Origin: Sphingorhabdus lutea
GTDB taxonomy: Bacteria; Pseudomonadota; Alphaproteobacteria; Sphingomonadales; Sphingomonadaceae
Assembly: GCF_001889025.1 (NCBI RefSeq)
Contig: NZ_CP018154.1
Span: 1,974,501-2,038,500 of the forward strand
Direction: 5' to 3'
Length of the DNA: 64,000 nt
The position numbers and the translations under genes are program-made. How positions within the stretch are numbered: position 1 is the first letter of the stretch; each line of letters begins with the position of its first letter. Shown here piece by piece: positions 57,472 through 64,000 of the stretch. The notes below the pieces were generated by a model. It made no database searches. It had not been told where the DNA came from and saw only the letters and a program-made list of their open reading frames with translations.

Positions 57472-59832
57472 ATGAATAATGACCAGAATTTTGATAATGA
57501 ACCCAATTGGCTGCGCGGGTTAAACCCACCCCAACGCGAAGCTGTGCTTACCACCGAAGGGCCGGTGTTAATGCTTGCCGGTGCGGGCACAGGTAAAACC
57601 GCCGCCCTAACCGCGCGATTGGCTAATATCATCTATACACGTAAAGCATGGCCATCGGAAATTTTGGCGGTTACATTTACCAATAAGGCGGCGCGTGAAA
57701 TGCGCGAACGCATTGGAAAAATGATTGGCGATGCGGTGGAGGGCATGCCATGGCTTGGCACTTTTCACTCCATTGGCGCAAAAATGCTGCGCCGCCATGC
57801 CGAATTGGTCGGCCTTGAAAGTAATTTCACCATCATTGATACCAGCGATCAATTACGATTGTTAAAACAGCTTATCCAAGCGGAAAATTTGGATGAAAAA
57901 CGCTGGCCCGCAAAATTGCTCGCCTCCTTAATCGACAAATGGAAAAATAAGGGGTTAATGCCCGAAGATATAAATGCAGGCGAAAGCGAGGCATATGCCA
58001 ATGGCAAAGGCCAATTGCTATATCAAATATATCAGGCGCGGCTCAAAACGCTAAACGCCTGTGATTTTGGTGATTTATTGCTGCTTAATTTGAAACTTAT
58101 GCGTGAAAATCGCGATATTTTGGAACAATATCAAGAACGCTTCAAATATATGTTGGTCGATGAATATCAAGACACCAATGCCGTGCAATATTTATGGCTG
58201 CGTTTATTGGCACAGCGGCGCAAAAATATTTGCGTGGTGGGCGATGATGACCAAAGTATTTACAGCTGGCGCGGCGCGGAAGTGACCAATATCTTACGCT
58301 TTGAGAAAGATTTTCCCGGCGCAAAAACAGTGAAATTGGAACAAAATTACCGCTCTACCCGCCATATTTTGGGCGCGGCATCCGGCCTTATCAACGCGAA
58401 TAGCGACCGATTGGGCAAAACCCTGTGGACCGAAATTGACGGGGGTGAGCCGGTTAAAATTTTGGGCGTGTGGGATGGGCCAGAGGAGGCCCGCCGCGTG
58501 GGCGAAGAGATTGAGGCATTGGCGCATAAGGGGCATGATTTAAATGATGCCGCCATTTTGGTGCGGGCACAATTTCAAACCCGCGAATTTGAGGATAGAT
58601 TTATCCAAATCGGCCTAAATTACCGGATTATTGGCGGGGCAAGATTTTATGAACGCGCGGAAATTCGCGATGCCATTGCCTATCTTCGCATCATCAACCA
58701 ACCCGCCGATGATCTTGCCTTTGAACGCATTGTCAACACACCCAAACGCGGTATAGGGGGCAAGGCGCTGGAAAAGATACATATTTTTGCCCGCGCATTA
58801 CAAAGCCCGCTTTATACCGCCGCTGCGGAACTGTGCCAAAGCGATGAAATGTCGGGCAAGGCAAAAAAATCATTGGCCGATTTATGCAAAAATATCGCCC
58901 GATGGCGCGATGAGGCGGGGCAAATTTCCCCATCGGAATTAACCCGCATGGTCATGGATGAATGCGGCTATACCGACATGTTACAGGCCGACCGCAGCGC
59001 GGAATCCACCGGACGGCTTGAAAATTTAACCGAGCTGACCCGCGCAATGGAAGATTATGAAACATTGGGCGATTTTTTGGAACATGTCTCGCTTGTCATG
59101 GATAATGATAATGCGGCAAGCGACCGATCGGTTACCATCATGACCATTCACGCGGCCAAGGGGTTGGAGTTTAAAAATCTGTTCCTTGTCGGGTGGGAAG
59201 AAGGCGTTTTCCCATCACAGCGCGCCATGGATGAAGGCGGCCTTGCCAGTTTGGAGGAGGAACGCCGCCTTGCCTATGTCGCCATTACCCGCGCACGTGA
59301 AAATTGCACCATATTTCACGCCGCCAATCGGCGAATTTATGGCCAATGGACCAGCAGCATCCCCAGTAGATTTATTGACGAGCTGCCCGATGAGCATATT
59401 GAAATGCAACAAAGCAATGCGGGCGGCGCGTCCCTGTGGCGCGCAAATTGGAGCGAGAATGAAGACCCGTTCAAACATTTATCCGCCGCCAATGCCACCC
59501 GCGCGGGGGCAAGAGGGCCAGGCTGGCAACGCGCGGCATTAGCATCCAATAATGCATCAGATAATAAATCATATAGCCCAGCCAGCAGCGGTTCAGGCGG
59601 CACATTAAGGGATAGCGATTTTTACCGCCCCCTACCTAGGGTTAAGGAAACAGGCCGCAGCGCCGCCAGCTATGCCCAAAAAGGCCGCAGCGATGTCGCG
59701 ATCGGTATGCGCGTTTTTCATGAAAAATTCGGCTATGGCGAAATATTGGAGATTGAGGGAAATAAGCTGGAAATCGAATTTGAACATGGCGGCAGCAAAA
59801 GGGTGATGGACAGCTTTATCAAGGTGGGGTGA
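57472..59832 (+). CDS. uvrD: ATP-dependent DNA helicase UvrD/PcrA
   Basis: A superfamily 1A 3'-5' helicase used in nucleotide-excision repair, mismatch repair and replication fork maintenance. Q-motif LNPPQREAVLTTEGP; Walker A AGAGTGKT (36-43) followed by VTFTNKAAREMRERI. The Walker B pair is in LVDEYQDTN near 229. Motif III is VVGDDDQSIYSWRGAE, and motif VI is LAYVAITRAREN. The tail has a linker and a C-terminal Tudor-like SH3 region (GMRVFHEKFGYGEILEIEG). At 786 aa it is full length. Both uvrD and pcrA names fit. It ends 17 nt from the stop of a MutH-like nuclease on the other strand. Confidence 0.95.
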   Translation: MNNDQNFDNEPNWLRGLNPPQREAVLTTEGPVLMLAGAGTGKTAALTARLANIIYTRKAWPSEILAVTFTNKAAREMRERIGKMIGDAVEGMPWLGTFHSIGAKMLRRHAELVGLESNFTIIDTSDQLRLLKQLIQAENLDEKRWPAKLLASLIDKWKNKGLMPEDINAGESEAYANGKGQLLYQIYQARLKTLNACDFGDLLLLNLKLMRENRDILEQYQERFKYMLVDEYQDTNAVQYLWLRLLAQRRKNICVVGDDDQSIYSWRGAEVTNILRFEKDFPGAKTVKLEQNYRSTRHILGAASGLINANSDRLGKTLWTEIDGGEPVKILGVWDGPEEARRVGEEIEALAHKGHDLNDAAILVRAQFQTREFEDRFIQIGLNYRIIGGARFYERAEIRDAIAYLRIINQPADDLAFERIVNTPKRGIGGKALEKIHIFARALQSPLYTAAAELCQSDEMSGKAKKSLADLCKNIARWRDEAGQISPSELTRMVMDECGYTDMLQADRSAESTGRLENLTELTRAMEDYETLGDFLEHVSLVMDNDNAASDRSVTIMTIHAAKGLEFKNLFLVGWEEGVFPSQRAMDEGGLASLEEERRLAYVAITRARENCTIFHAANRRIYGQWTSSIPSRFIDELPDEHIEMQQSNAGGASLWRANWSENEDPFKHLSAANATRAGARGPGWQRAALASNNASDNKSYSPASSGSGGTLRDSDFYRPLPRVKETGRSAASYAQKGRSDVAIGMRVFHEKFGYGEILEIEGNKLEIEFEHGGSKRVMDSFIKVG

Positions 59833-59849
59833 TATTTATGCCTTCCAAT

Positions 59850-60455
59850 TTAAATCGGCATAACTCTCTTTAGGAATTCTTTTCGGGCATAAAATGCTCT
59901 TGAAATACTTCCATGACCAGCACCTTTTGTGCGAGGCTGAATCAGTTTTCCCATTTTACCTGACAAACTTTTTAGTCCTTTTTGAGAGATTTGAGCTCTT
60001 ATTGTTTCATAATCCTCCTCAATTATCTTTTTAGTCTCTACATCAAGATCAACCTCATGGACTGCATGAATGTAGCTATGATCGGCAAAATTATTTCCTA
60101 CAACCCTAAGTACGCATACAAATTTGTTCAATTTTTGTAATAAATGACTATCAGAAAATGGGGTCTTCATTACTTGAATGGGATCTATCATAGTGACCGC
60201 CATCGTTTCCTTAAAAACCAATTCTCCCCTAGCATATTTTAATGACACGCTTTTTAATTCCCACGAACCAAAATTCGGACTTTGCGAAGAATTTATAGGT
60301 AAATTTAGATGTCGTTCTATAACTTGCCCCGCCCATCCTTTATTTTGACGTCCATTTTTAACAGGTTCAATTTGATGAATAATGGCAAGATCATGCAGGT
60401 TATGCTCAATGCCAGTTATTTCCTTTAGCTTTTTAAGTGCCTCGGAGCGTTCCAT
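59850..60455 (-). CDS. MutH/Sau3AI-family endonuclease
   Basis: A 201 aa single-domain protein. Its core reads KGWAGQVIERHL (Glu47), a Ser/Pro stretch, NFGSWELKSVSL (Asn61, Glu66, Lys68) and KETMAVTMIDP. This matches the MutH/Sau3AI order KGxxGxxxE, DF, ELK, ETx. MutH uses Asp70, Glu77 and Lys79 in E. coli; here the Asp position appears to be Asn61, so cleavage activity may be altered. The length is close to E. coli MutH (229 aa). Beside Dam and DpnA-like methylases it is most likely the GATC nuclease of a restriction-modification system. I chose ATG 60455, where AAAGGA lies 5 nt upstream; a GTG immediately before is possible. Codon use is AT-rich compared with neighbours. Confidence 0.7.
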   Translation of the reverse strand: MERSEALKKLKEITGIEHNLHDLAIIHQIEPVKNGRQNKGWAGQVIERHLNLPINSSQSPNFGSWELKSVSLKYARGELVFKETMAVTMIDPIQVMKTPFSDSHLLQKLNKFVCVLRVVGNNFADHSYIHAVHEVDLDVETKKIIEEDYETIRAQISQKGLKSLSGKMGKLIQPRTKGAGHGSISRAFYARKEFLKRVMPI

Positions 60456-61311
60456 CACAATCCTTTAATCTACTTATTGATAAATCAATATATTCTCTTT
60501 CGGCATCAATGCCACAAAATTTTCTATTATTTTGAATTGCTGACACTCCGGTAGTAGAACTACCGCTAAATGGATCAAAAACAAAATCCCCCTCTTTCGT
60601 AGATGAAAGAATAATTCGGTTTAATAGAGAAATGGGTTTTTGCGTGGGATGCTTGCCATGCATTTTTTCGTTTTTATTAGGTGGAAGAAATTGCCAAACA
60701 GTTTTCATTTGCTTTCCGCCATTCTCCTCCCTCATATCTTGGTAATTAAAAATATGTTTACTCTTAATGGACTTAGATGCCCATATAATAGTTTCAGTTG
60801 AATGAGTGAAATATCGACAAGACAAATTCGGCGGTGGGTTTGGTTTTTCCCACGTGATTTCATTTAAAATTTTAAAATTCAATGTTTGGAGTGCAAAGCC
60901 AACAATATGAATGATATGATGTGTCCCAGAAATCCATATTGTTCCATTAGGTTTCAATAATTTCTGACATAGTGACAGCCATTTTTTTGTATATTCAAAA
61001 TCCAACTCCGGACCTTCTGAACGGTCCCAATCCCCTTTATGAACAGGAACAACCTTGCCAGATTTGCAGGTAAATCCGCCATTTGATAGCTTATATGGAG
61101 GGTCTGCAAATATCATATCAAAACAACCATCGGGATGCTTTTTTAATATTGCTTCCATAACTTCAATTGTATCGCCTTCAAAAATATATGCTTTTTTTAC
61201 AGGACAATAATAAGCAAGATTATATGATTTGTTAATTTCGCTGTCCGACTCTGCGGGAATATAGCCTGTTCGTTCTTCAGCAAAAAAGTCTAATTTTTTT
61301 TTATCTTGCAT
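60433..61311 (-). CDS. DpnA-like adenine-specific DNA methyltransferase (beta class)
   Basis: A 292 aa N6-adenine methyltransferase. Motif IV comes first, as DMIFADPPYKLSNGG (70-73 for DPPY), and motif I last, as FDPFSGSSTTGVSA (245-258). This is the beta order. Long stretches agree with DpnA (M2.DpnII): the KGDWDR region, NLSCRYFTHSTETIIWASK and KHPTQKPISLLNRIILSSTKEGD, readable here in part. DpnA methylates GATC, preferentially on single strands, and eases transfer of the system by DNA uptake. The start is the ATG at 61311 (M-Q-D-K-K); the codon before it is a TTG. It overlaps dam by 11 nt and the nuclease gene by 23 nt. Confidence 0.9.
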   Translation of the reverse strand: MQDKKKLDFFAEERTGYIPAESDSEINKSYNLAYYCPVKKAYIFEGDTIEVMEAILKKHPDGCFDMIFADPPYKLSNGGFTCKSGKVVPVHKGDWDRSEGPELDFEYTKKWLSLCQKLLKPNGTIWISGTHHIIHIVGFALQTLNFKILNEITWEKPNPPPNLSCRYFTHSTETIIWASKSIKSKHIFNYQDMREENGGKQMKTVWQFLPPNKNEKMHGKHPTQKPISLLNRIILSSTKEGDFVFDPFSGSSTTGVSAIQNNRKFCGIDAEREYIDLSISRLKDCDGTLRGT

Positions 61312-62173
61312 CAAAAATCGCCAAGAGTTCAGGGGCAGCGTTTCTCGTCGAAGCTTTGCTGGAAATTAACCGAGACACATTAAACTCAATAATTTTGGCT
61401 TCCTTATACAATTTAAGGGTCTCTTCTGTTCTATGATTTGAAATTATTACAGTTGTCCCTTGCTCAGATAATCTAATTGCTTCATCTCTTAATTTTACAT
61501 GCTCAGCTTCACCAAATTCATTTTTAGAATAGCTTGTGAAATTTGATGTCGCGGTTAGTGGCGAATATGGCGGATCGCAGTAAAAAACATCGCCCGGCCT
61601 TGCCTGTGCGAAAGTGTCTTCGAAAGATTGATGATAAAATGTCGCCTCTTTCGCGAAAGAGGCAAAATTCATAATTTCATTTTTGGGACATTTAGGGTTA
61701 GTATATTTGCCAAATGGTACGTTAAATATTCCGCTCTTATTATATCTACATAGGCCATTAAAACAGTGGCGATTCAAATAAATAAAAATTGAAGACTTAC
61801 GGATTGAATTTGGCGAAGAGTTGAATTCTTCGCGCAATTCATAAAAAGCATCTGCATTATTGTTTGAACCATCAAATAGATTTTCAGTTTCTTTTAGAAT
61901 TAAGTCAGCGTCTGTCTGTATATTTATAAATAGGTCTATCAAATCAGCATTAGTGTCTGAAAGCAGAAAATTTGGATAGGTTGATACCAATGAAATTGCA
62001 CATGACCCTGCAAATGGCTCCACCAATCTTTCCCCCGAAGGCAGGACAGGCAATATATGACTGATAACCCTATGCTTATTGCCAGCCCATTTTAAAAATG
62101 GTTTACGTCCGATATTATTAACAATTTGATTCATATTTTTTGATAGCAGTCGAAAATCGAAAACGAAACGCAT
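61301..62173 (-). CDS. dam: Dam-like DNA adenine methyltransferase (GATC)
   Basis: A 290 aa alpha-class N6-adenine methyltransferase, very close in layout to E. coli Dam. The SAM motif is PFLKWAGNKHRVI (25-37) with LVEPFAGSCAIS. YLNRHCFNGLCRYNKSGIFNVPFGKY, partly shown, is the Dam signature, followed by DPPYSPLTATSNFTSY (200-203 for DPPY). It would methylate adenine in GATC. The ATG at 62173 follows the upstream gene's stop by 3 nt, with GGGGTGAGAA as the ribosome site. A second ATG at 62134 (M-N-Q-I-V-N) is closer to the family start. Codon use is unlike the neighbours. Confidence 0.92.
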   Translation of the reverse strand: MRFVFDFRLLSKNMNQIVNNIGRKPFLKWAGNKHRVISHILPVLPSGERLVEPFAGSCAISLVSTYPNFLLSDTNADLIDLFINIQTDADLILKETENLFDGSNNNADAFYELREEFNSSPNSIRKSSIFIYLNRHCFNGLCRYNKSGIFNVPFGKYTNPKCPKNEIMNFASFAKEATFYHQSFEDTFAQARPGDVFYCDPPYSPLTATSNFTSYSKNEFGEAEHVKLRDEAIRLSEQGTTVIISNHRTEETLKLYKEAKIIEFNVSRLISSKASTRNAAPELLAIFDAR

Positions 62174-62176
62174 TTC

Positions 62177-62617
62177 TCACCCCAAATCAGGGGGGATCCA
62201 GCCGCGTCTTGCCGCCACGCTAAATAATGTGTCGCGCGTATAAAATTTTAACAACCAATTGCTGTGCCCATATTCATGCCCCATCATATCCGCCAAAATA
62301 TCGGCCAAGGGGGTGTTCGCGCTATATTGCGCCATAAATTTGTCCGTCACATCCAATGACATCATCGTGATGCTGTGATGATATCCGCTTTTATCATCAT
62401 TGACCACGCCCGTTGCCTGATTATAGGCGCGGATGATGTCCGGCATGGCGGCCTTTGCCACCGCCAGCCCCATTTTACGCACAAGGTATAGCGCGGCGGC
62501 AAAATGCGCCTCATGCGTCCAATCGCTTTTCGGCCAGCTAAGATCATTTAACCCGCCATAAAGTTTTTCAAAATCGCTTTCCTGTGTAAAGGCAGCGTTA
62601 AAAGACGGCTTTGGCAC
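62177..62617 (-). CDS. Conserved protein of unknown function with WTHEAH motif
   Basis: A 146 aa protein of a conserved, uncharacterised family. Its pattern is SDWTHEAHFAAALYLV, then YNQATGVVNDDKSGYHHSITMM, and a C-terminal HSNWLLKFYTRDTLFS followed by ARRGWIPPDL. The conserved His residues suggest metal or acid-base chemistry, but no activity is known to me. It starts at a GTG at 62617 inside the end of the DUF885 gene (20 nt overlap), so it is likely translated with it. It is native in composition, and the methylase island begins 3 nt after its stop. Confidence 0.65.
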   Translation of the reverse strand: MPKPSFNAAFTQESDFEKLYGGLNDLSWPKSDWTHEAHFAAALYLVRKMGLAVAKAAMPDIIRAYNQATGVVNDDKSGYHHSITMMSLDVTDKFMAQYSANTPLADILADMMGHEYGHSNWLLKFYTRDTLFSVAARRGWIPPDLG

Positions 62618-64000
62618 TTTCTTCTTTCATCATTGCTTTGCGGACCATGGGGATGGGCGGCCCGCCATAGGATAGGAATTCATCATGAAATGCCTTCCAA
62701 TTTTTTTGCCCCTGTGCGCCGCCATTTTGCTTTGCGGTCCAATCGGCGCGAAGTTTCCTAATCATCAATTTACCCAGTGTGTAGTTAAGATAGGCGGGAT
62801 CATATGTGCCCCGCGCCGCCTGTTGCATGGCGGTGCCGGCATCTTGATAACATTCATTTTTGAAAAGTTCCTGACTTTGCGTCACGCTCAACCCACGGGC
62901 GTGCAGGCCAATGGCGGAAAGATAGCGGCAATTACGCAGCAACGCATTGGTTAATTGCCCAACATGGGTTTCGGGATCGGCCACGCCATTTTCACCGTTC
63001 AGCCCCGCCTCTACCATCATTTCTTCGCCATAATGCGCCCATCCCTCGGCAAAGGCATAGCCAACAAATAATTTGCCGATAATGCTTTTTGAACGGTTGC
63101 TATGCAAAAATTGCAAAAAATGCCCTGGCCAAATTTCATGCACCGACGTGCCGAGCAGATCCTTTTTGCCTGGAATAAATGCCGCGCGGGTTTCCGCATC
63201 CCAACTTGGATCGGGCGGAGAAATATAATAGGTGCTGGGCAATCCCGTTTCATATGGCCCAGGAATGATGATATAGGCGCTATTTTGCCGGTTATAGGGC
63301 GGGGATTCCTCCACCAATGCCTGTTCTGTCCCTGGAATAGTGACCAGATCATTTTTAATCAAAAATTCACGCAGTGGCGGCAATTGGTCGCGTGCCTCCT
63401 GCACTGGTCCTTTTTCCGGTTTATTCGCGGCCATTTTTGCCATGCAATCGGCAAGGCTGGCCAAGGGGGCGAATTTTGCACAGGCGGCCTTTAACGCATC
63501 CTGATTTCGTTTCAAATCCGCGCGGCCCACTGCCTCCAACTCATCCAAGGGAATACCTACCCCCTCGGTGCGCAGCAGCATATTGGAAAATTTCTGCCCG
63601 CCCAGCGCATATCCATCGGCGGTTGCAGGCTTTGATTGTATATGCAGCGAAAGGCTGGTCATCGCGGCCGATGCCTTGGCCACCGATGCATCAAATATTT
63701 TTTGCAGTTCATCATTTTTCACATCGGCAAAGGCGGCCTTTGCATCGCCGCCATAATATGCAGCAAAACCATCAAATCCCGCCACGCCCAATTTCAAAAA
63801 TGTCGCAGGCAGCGGCAATTTCAAATTGCCCTTTATCTGCTCAGCGGCGGCGGGAATATTGTCCAAATATTTAATAAACGCCTTCATCCGCGTTTCTTTA
63901 TTGGCATATTCGCGCGAAATATACACATCGGGATCAAGTGTATTGATATAAAATGCGGGGTTATTATGCGGTTGGTCCGCCTCCTCCATCCAAAACAGCT
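62598..64000 (-). CDS. DUF885 family peptidase-like protein, partial (N-terminus off the window)
   Basis: The reading frame is open to the right edge (L-F-W before the first ATG in the window), so the true start lies beyond 64000 and the visible 467 or so codons are the C-terminal part. Family members are about 570-600 aa, often exported with a lipobox or signal peptide. The metal-binding motif is SVHEIWPGHFLQFLHSN (HEIWPGH). AEGWAHYGEEMMVEAGL (E-x-W-A-H-Y-x-E) is also present. This is a zinc-peptidase-like fold; the substrate is unknown. It overlaps the next gene by 20 nt. Confidence 0.85.
   Translation of the reverse strand, partial: LFWMEEADQPHNNPAFYINTLDPDVYISREYANKETRMKAFIKYLDNIPAAAEQIKGNLKLPLPATFLKLGVAGFDGFAAYYGGDAKAAFADVKNDELQKIFDASVAKASAAMTSLSLHIQSKPATADGYALGGQKFSNMLLRTEGVGIPLDELEAVGRADLKRNQDALKAACAKFAPLASLADCMAKMAANKPEKGPVQEARDQLPPLREFLIKNDLVTIPGTEQALVEESPPYNRQNSAYIIIPGPYETGLPSTYYISPPDPSWDAETRAAFIPGKKDLLGTSVHEIWPGHFLQFLHSNRSKSIIGKLFVGYAFAEGWAHYGEEMMVEAGLNGENGVADPETHVGQLTNALLRNCRYLSAIGLHARGLSVTQSQELFKNECYQDAGTAMQQAARGTYDPAYLNYTLGKLMIRKLRADWTAKQNGGAQGQKNWKAFHDEFLSYGGPPIPMVRKAMMKEESAKAVF

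Follow-up and report, generated by a model that had tools for sequence, protein, structure and literature searches.

Three overlapping genes in a low-GC island

The window analysed here is a 64,000-nucleotide (nt) stretch of the Sphingorhabdus lutea genome (NZ_CP018154.1, positions 1,974,501 to 2,038,500), at the end of which three overlapping minus-strand genes, Ma, Mb and R, lie between positions 59850 and 62173. All three open reading frames (ORFs) were found where the initial annotation had placed them. Ma (61301..62173, minus strand) encodes a Dam-type alpha-class N6-adenine methylase of 290 amino acids (aa) from ATG 62173, with a second, inner ATG 39 nt inside it, and its predicted target is GATC. 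Mb (60433..61311, minus strand) encodes a DpnA-type beta-class N6-adenine methylase of 292 aa from ATG 61311, and R (59850..60455, minus strand) a compact single-domain MutH-fold nuclease of 201 aa from ATG 60455. Taking the ATG directly after each listed TTG or GTG as the start, Ma and Mb overlap by 11 nt (61301-61311) and Mb and R by 23 nt (60433-60455), and each frame is open throughout with a single terminal stop. The three genes coincide with a low-GC island (59850..62173, assigned to neither strand), with 35.9% G+C compared to 50-52% in those four neighbouring genes for which it was measured.

Ma scored 270.7 bits against the TIGR00571 dam model, above its curated cut-off, matched PF02086 at 4e-60, and is nearer to E. 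coli Dam (7e-68) than to pneumococcal DpnM (2dpm; 1e-36), in agreement with its first description as a Dam-like alpha methylase. Its best PADLOC model is that of an orphan methylase (PDLC03729), and it is the sole Dam-type match within its own genome at E ≤ 1e-20. Mb matched PF01555 at 3.9e-57 and shares 53% identity, across 249 aligned positions, with the second (DpnA-like) methylase of plasmid pSRQ700; PDLC03371 is the best PADLOC model for both proteins, which bears out the proposed DpnA homology. The best solved match of Mb is CcrM (184 bits), whose extra C-terminal length it does not have, and a second beta-class methylase elsewhere in the genome, CcrM-like by length, is 42% identical to Mb. 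A Neisseria gonorrhoeae record (L009:1422-3681) holds, next to a DpnI-family (Dam-replacing) gene, a disrupted DpnA-like gene whose matched part shares 58% identity with Mb, as well as a short ORF whose weak PDDEXK_11 match falls just under the cut-off.

The GATC operon of pSRQ700, which we take to be LlaDCHI, has three genes, the last of which encodes a PF04556 DpnII-family nuclease. Ma-Mb-R shares with this DpnII/LlaDCHI type the pairing of an alpha GATC methylase with a DpnA-type beta methylase in one operon, the order alpha methylase, DpnA-type methylase, nuclease, and the overlapping or near-touching genes. It differs in that Ma is of Dam type rather than DpnM type, and in its nuclease. 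As in Type II restriction-modification (RM) systems, the nuclease gene is linked to the gene of a methylase with the same predicted site.

The nuclease R and its active site

In a Pfam scan R matched PF02976 MutH (3.7e-9) and PF15515 MvaI_BcnI (1.8e-7), both above the curated cut-offs, and gave no match to the DpnII family PF04556, which was matched at 1.5e-79 or better by 3/3 DpnII-type control nucleases of 285-309 aa; R was therefore rejected as a DpnII/MboI-type nuclease. Among the NCBIfam models, R reached 58.5 bits against Sau3AI (cut-off 300) and remained below both MutH equivalogs, with 49.9 bits (cut-off 243) and 35.4 bits (cut-off 229.9), while PADLOC gave one match only, to the REase_II model PDLC03553 (527 positions, 4.2e-9). 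The comparison of the 201 aa protein with profile models that the initial annotation had proposed thus returned MutH and Sau3AI and not DpnII, and its view of R as a single-domain MutH/Sau3AI-like nuclease held. R has the MutH-like catalytic domain of the Sau3AI family, but at 201 aa and 58.5 bits it does not have the two MutH-like domains (about 475-490 aa; 300 bits) of that family. Sau3AI pairs with a C5 methylase, whereas both partners of R are N6-adenine types. The second MutH-like domain of Sau3AI, absent from R, is described as degenerate (PMC1189080).

R resembles MutH of E. coli and H. influenzae in its single domain, its predicted fold, its GATC-reading residues and most of its active site. 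Homologues were taken as the best 120 of 2516 proteins, and 51 of these (including three Asp-bearing ones), the R of the window and nine loci were combined into a 61-row alignment (A3). In all 61 rows, the residues equivalent to those with which MutH reads GATC are conserved: Lys39 (60339..60341) for MutH Lys48 and Glu83 (60207..60209) for Glu91, both by alignment, Arg175 (59931..59933) for Arg184, and Tyr189 (59889..59891) for Tyr212, all on the minus strand. The Tyr189/Tyr212 assignment comes from MAFFT and from the structural alignment, where the R model ends with its residue 201 on residue 224 of E. coli MutH, an offset identical to that of the two tyrosines. The MutH substitutions K48A and R184A are each reported to abolish activity (PMC10940147). 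Glu66-Leu67-Lys68 (60252..60260, minus strand) aligns to MutH Glu77-x-Lys79, and Glu47, Glu66, Lys68 and Lys108 are likewise invariant (61/61). In contrast to MutH, R is two residues shorter ahead of the ExK pair, and it has a shorter tail and Asn61 (codon 60273..60275, minus strand) aligned to the catalytic Asp70, so that the Asp-Glu-Lys triad is incomplete in this low-confidence part of the model. Among the 119 listed relatives the residue at this position is Asn in 116 and Asp in three (P0028, P0045 and P0078), the last being close relatives in which it stands in the same sequence context as in R.

Relatives, methylase partners and horizontal acquisition

In a protein search at E ≤ 0.001, 2516 proteins proved related to R, and most of the named ones are called MutH. 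The initial annotation had named no described system with this trio. The nuclease family is in part a known one; no description of a MutH-like nuclease with Dam and DpnA was found in a literature search that covered open-licence papers and not REBASE. In phylum scans R matched 4/398 in Pseudomonadota (its own genome and three true MutH, as judged by comparison with E. coli MutH), 1/350 in the phylum of the Chloroflexota seed (the seed itself) and 4/297, seed included, in that of the Pyrinomonadaceae seed. One phage record matched R, the plasmid collection gave no match to R, and a scan of viral contigs with Mb returned nothing.

The DNA context was read at 13 other loci with a whole R homologue, from Sphingomonadales (L002), Chloroflexota (L003-L006), Pyrinomonadaceae (L007), phage or viral contigs (L013-L016) and Acidobacteriota (L126-L128); viral L017, where the match covers only 50 residues of R and a DpnA-type gene is not adjacent, stands outside this count. 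A GATC-type methylase gene lies upstream of the R homologue in 10/13 loci, of the alpha class in six (L003-L006, L013, L016) and of the beta class in four (L002, L007, L014, L015), with a small ORF between the two genes in L014. The alpha partners are DpnM-like in Chloroflexota and Dam-like in phages; therefore, methylase partners have been exchanged. The DpnM-like genes of Chloroflexota all contain, at the same place, a poly-G tract of between 9 and 14 G (L003:4330, L004:4333, L005:4331, L006:4191-4325).

The Ma-Mb-R cassette is horizontally acquired and foreign by composition. Besides its own genome, R is present in 1/36 congeners, G009, where Mb and R are 70% and 69% identical to those of the window on a contig that begins within Mb. 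Ma gave four matches in 45 genus genomes including its own, namely a 63% identical piece in G006 and two others at about 31%. The G006 piece (L034:4334-4861) passes at the contig end into unrelated sequence, which we read as an insertion sequence. None of R, Mb and Ma stands beside pcrA in the 29 congener loci read, and in two of these a DUF885 gene faces pcrA within 1.5 kb, with a gap of about 190 nt in G028.

In the window, the cassette is flanked on one side by pcrA/uvrD (57472-59832, plus strand) and on the other by a small gene (62177-62617, minus strand) that has no Pfam match and overlaps a DUF885 gene. The 146 aa product of this small gene matched nothing in Pfam, NCBIfam or PADLOC; homologues (E ≤ 0.001) occur in 30/45 genus genomes including its own, and no congener copy was seen adjoining pcrA. 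An exact 14-nt direct repeat at 59838-59851 (R stop codon) and 62690-62703 (inside DUF885) may be due to chance, and was not adopted as a target duplication because the second copy sits within a flanking gene. A promoter and terminator scan was near chance (12 vs 9.7; 4 vs 3.2).

A probable GATC restriction system and its alternatives

Restriction is the reading with the strongest support, and we consider it likely that Ma-Mb-R is a horizontally acquired Type II GATC RM system, organized as a DpnII-like methylase–methylase–nuclease operon with a MutH-like nuclease. The earlier suggestion of a restriction system that had acquired a compact MutH-like nuclease stands as regards the operon and the single-domain MutH/Sau3AI-type enzyme in its nuclease slot, while action at GATC is only probable. 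On double-stranded DNA, Ma would methylate the GATC adenine; Mb would methylate GATC as well and may protect single-stranded incoming DNA as DpnA does, the methylation of single-stranded DNA by DpnA being described in PMC4687349. R would stand in for the DpnII-family nuclease, to which it is unrelated, in an operon that otherwise resembles the DpnII type and, as a single-domain and probably monomeric enzyme, would bind GATC and break an unmethylated site one strand at a time, with full GATC methylation blocking it. Two other Sau3AI-type systems are different in their methylation: DpnIII/Spn23FI is blocked by 5mC (PMC12707154), and the katablepharid MutH system has its enzyme beside a C5 methylase (PMC8099122), compared to the N6-adenine methylases here. 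Marseillevirus R.Mis1I, a proven GATC enzyme sensitive to N6-methyladenine (6mA), was set apart from R by its description in PMC7253447 and PMC10734518 as CviAI-like with no recognisable domain.

GATC depletion is weak support for GATC restriction. In 160 kb of its own genome GATC occurs at 0.56 of expectation, which is the lowest of the 16 palindromic tetramers and the lowest value among samples of 20-160 kb from each of 14 congeneric genomes (others 0.69-1.07). Several observations weigh against the restriction reading, however. The depletion is partly compositional; CCGG (0.64) and GTAC (0.65) are likewise low in the same genome, GATC stands at 0.69 in G035, which has the nearest base composition and no R match, and at 0.86 in G009, which carries Mb and R. 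The three Acidobacteriota loci among the 13 are solitary, with no adjacent methylase, and the alpha, beta and R trio was seen in none of the 13, of which L002 ends within Mb upstream. The methylase frame is broken at the poly-G tract in 3/4 Chloroflexota loci and open in the fourth; the methylase may be phase-variable or the metagenome bins misassembled here, and with a strongly cutting R a real break would be suicidal. The chief uncertainty lies in the replacement of the catalytic Asp by Asn61, where the R model is poor (residues 59-62 with a predicted local distance difference test score, pLDDT, below 50), although Asn at this position would seem compatible with activity.

That R is catalytically weak or dead for want of the metal-binding Asp, and that the cassette then serves mainly for GATC methylation or R does no more than bind or nick slowly, is in our estimate unlikely. 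The predominance of Asn among the listed relatives (116/119), the Asp of the solitary homologues and the cyanophage protein, and the broken frames beside R in Chloroflexota would agree with such an enzyme, as would a protist mitochondrial MutH-like enzyme with predicted GATC specificity, for which neither methylation nor toxicity in E. coli was detected (PMC8099122); yet Glu47, Glu66, Lys68 and Lys108 are invariant, as they would not stay in a dead enzyme subject to drift, and the close relatives P0028, P0045 and P0078 do carry Asp. An RM system whose true site is other than GATC, or GATC plus extra bases, is suggested by the PF15515 match of R and by CcrM, a GANTC enzyme, as the best solved match of Mb, and appears far less probable still, given the conserved GATC-reading residues. 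Equally improbable is that Ma and R work together in methyl-directed mismatch repair as Dam and MutH do, and the Dam/MutH link once proposed for this locus was not borne out. MutH partners a MutL without endonuclease activity, and the host MutL bears the endonuclease motif DQHA(X)2E(X)4E (DQHAAHERLVLE); R occurs in 1/36 congeners searched, sits in the low-GC island and, unlike MutH, is methylase-linked and horizontally acquired, scores far under the MutH equivalog cut-off (49.9 vs 243 bits), and the tail past the Tyr212 equivalent has 12 residues in 63/120 listed proteins (window included) vs 17 in E. coli MutH.

A possible Dam/MutH link is seen elsewhere in the family, in the solitary relatives and in cyanophages. 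The three Acidobacteriota proteins (L126:5266-5862, L127:4983-5582, L128:5197-5802) have a canonical PD...(E/D)LK motif and a longer tail, two of them share gene neighbours, and all three genomes encode, at an unlinked position, a Dam-family methylase above the TIGR00571 cut-off (L169:3828-4718, L170:3795-4601, L171:3996-4862). In the R-family tree, which is midpoint-rooted and has very long outgroup branches, they lie inside the methylase-linked group (98/95 with L007; 100/98 with L014 and L015), and because of this nesting a derivation from a restriction enzyme would fit. A compact MutH-like protein is also found in cyanophages (25 records, all Synechococcus phages, mostly annotated hypothetical). 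It adjoins Dam in the S-RIM8 (L101:2552-4037) and WH25-B (L176:1112-2594) regions and is naturally fused to Dam in S-8S29 (L175:1613-3091), while in S-CAM7 some 32 kb separate it from Dam. These pairs resemble Ma and R in placing a Dam-type methylase beside a compact MutH-like protein, but the nuclease is very distant (A3 profile 6.8e-8) and has Asp at the catalytic position, and a DpnA-type gene was not seen in the regions read.

A wider and rather doubtful proposal is that the compact PN...ExK MutH-like family forms a separate single-domain GATC restriction lineage that swaps alpha and beta 6mA methylase partners, in which Asn would tune slow, strand-by-strand cutting that tolerates hemimethylated DNA; the Acidobacteriota proteins would have regained Asp, lost the linked methylase and now be served by an unlinked Dam, as an independent replay of the possible restriction-enzyme origin of MutH. 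If the restriction reading of Ma-Mb-R is true, R would be a methylase-linked single-domain MutH relative directly testable as a restriction enzyme, and its natural Asn- and Asp-bearing homologues could be used to probe how strict the PD-(D/E)XK motif is. Many metagenomic proteins named MutH would then be restriction enzymes, and the pairing of two adenine methylases with a small MutH relative would tie restriction systems to Dam/MutH-type repair enzymes, with living intermediates between restriction enzymes and MutH.
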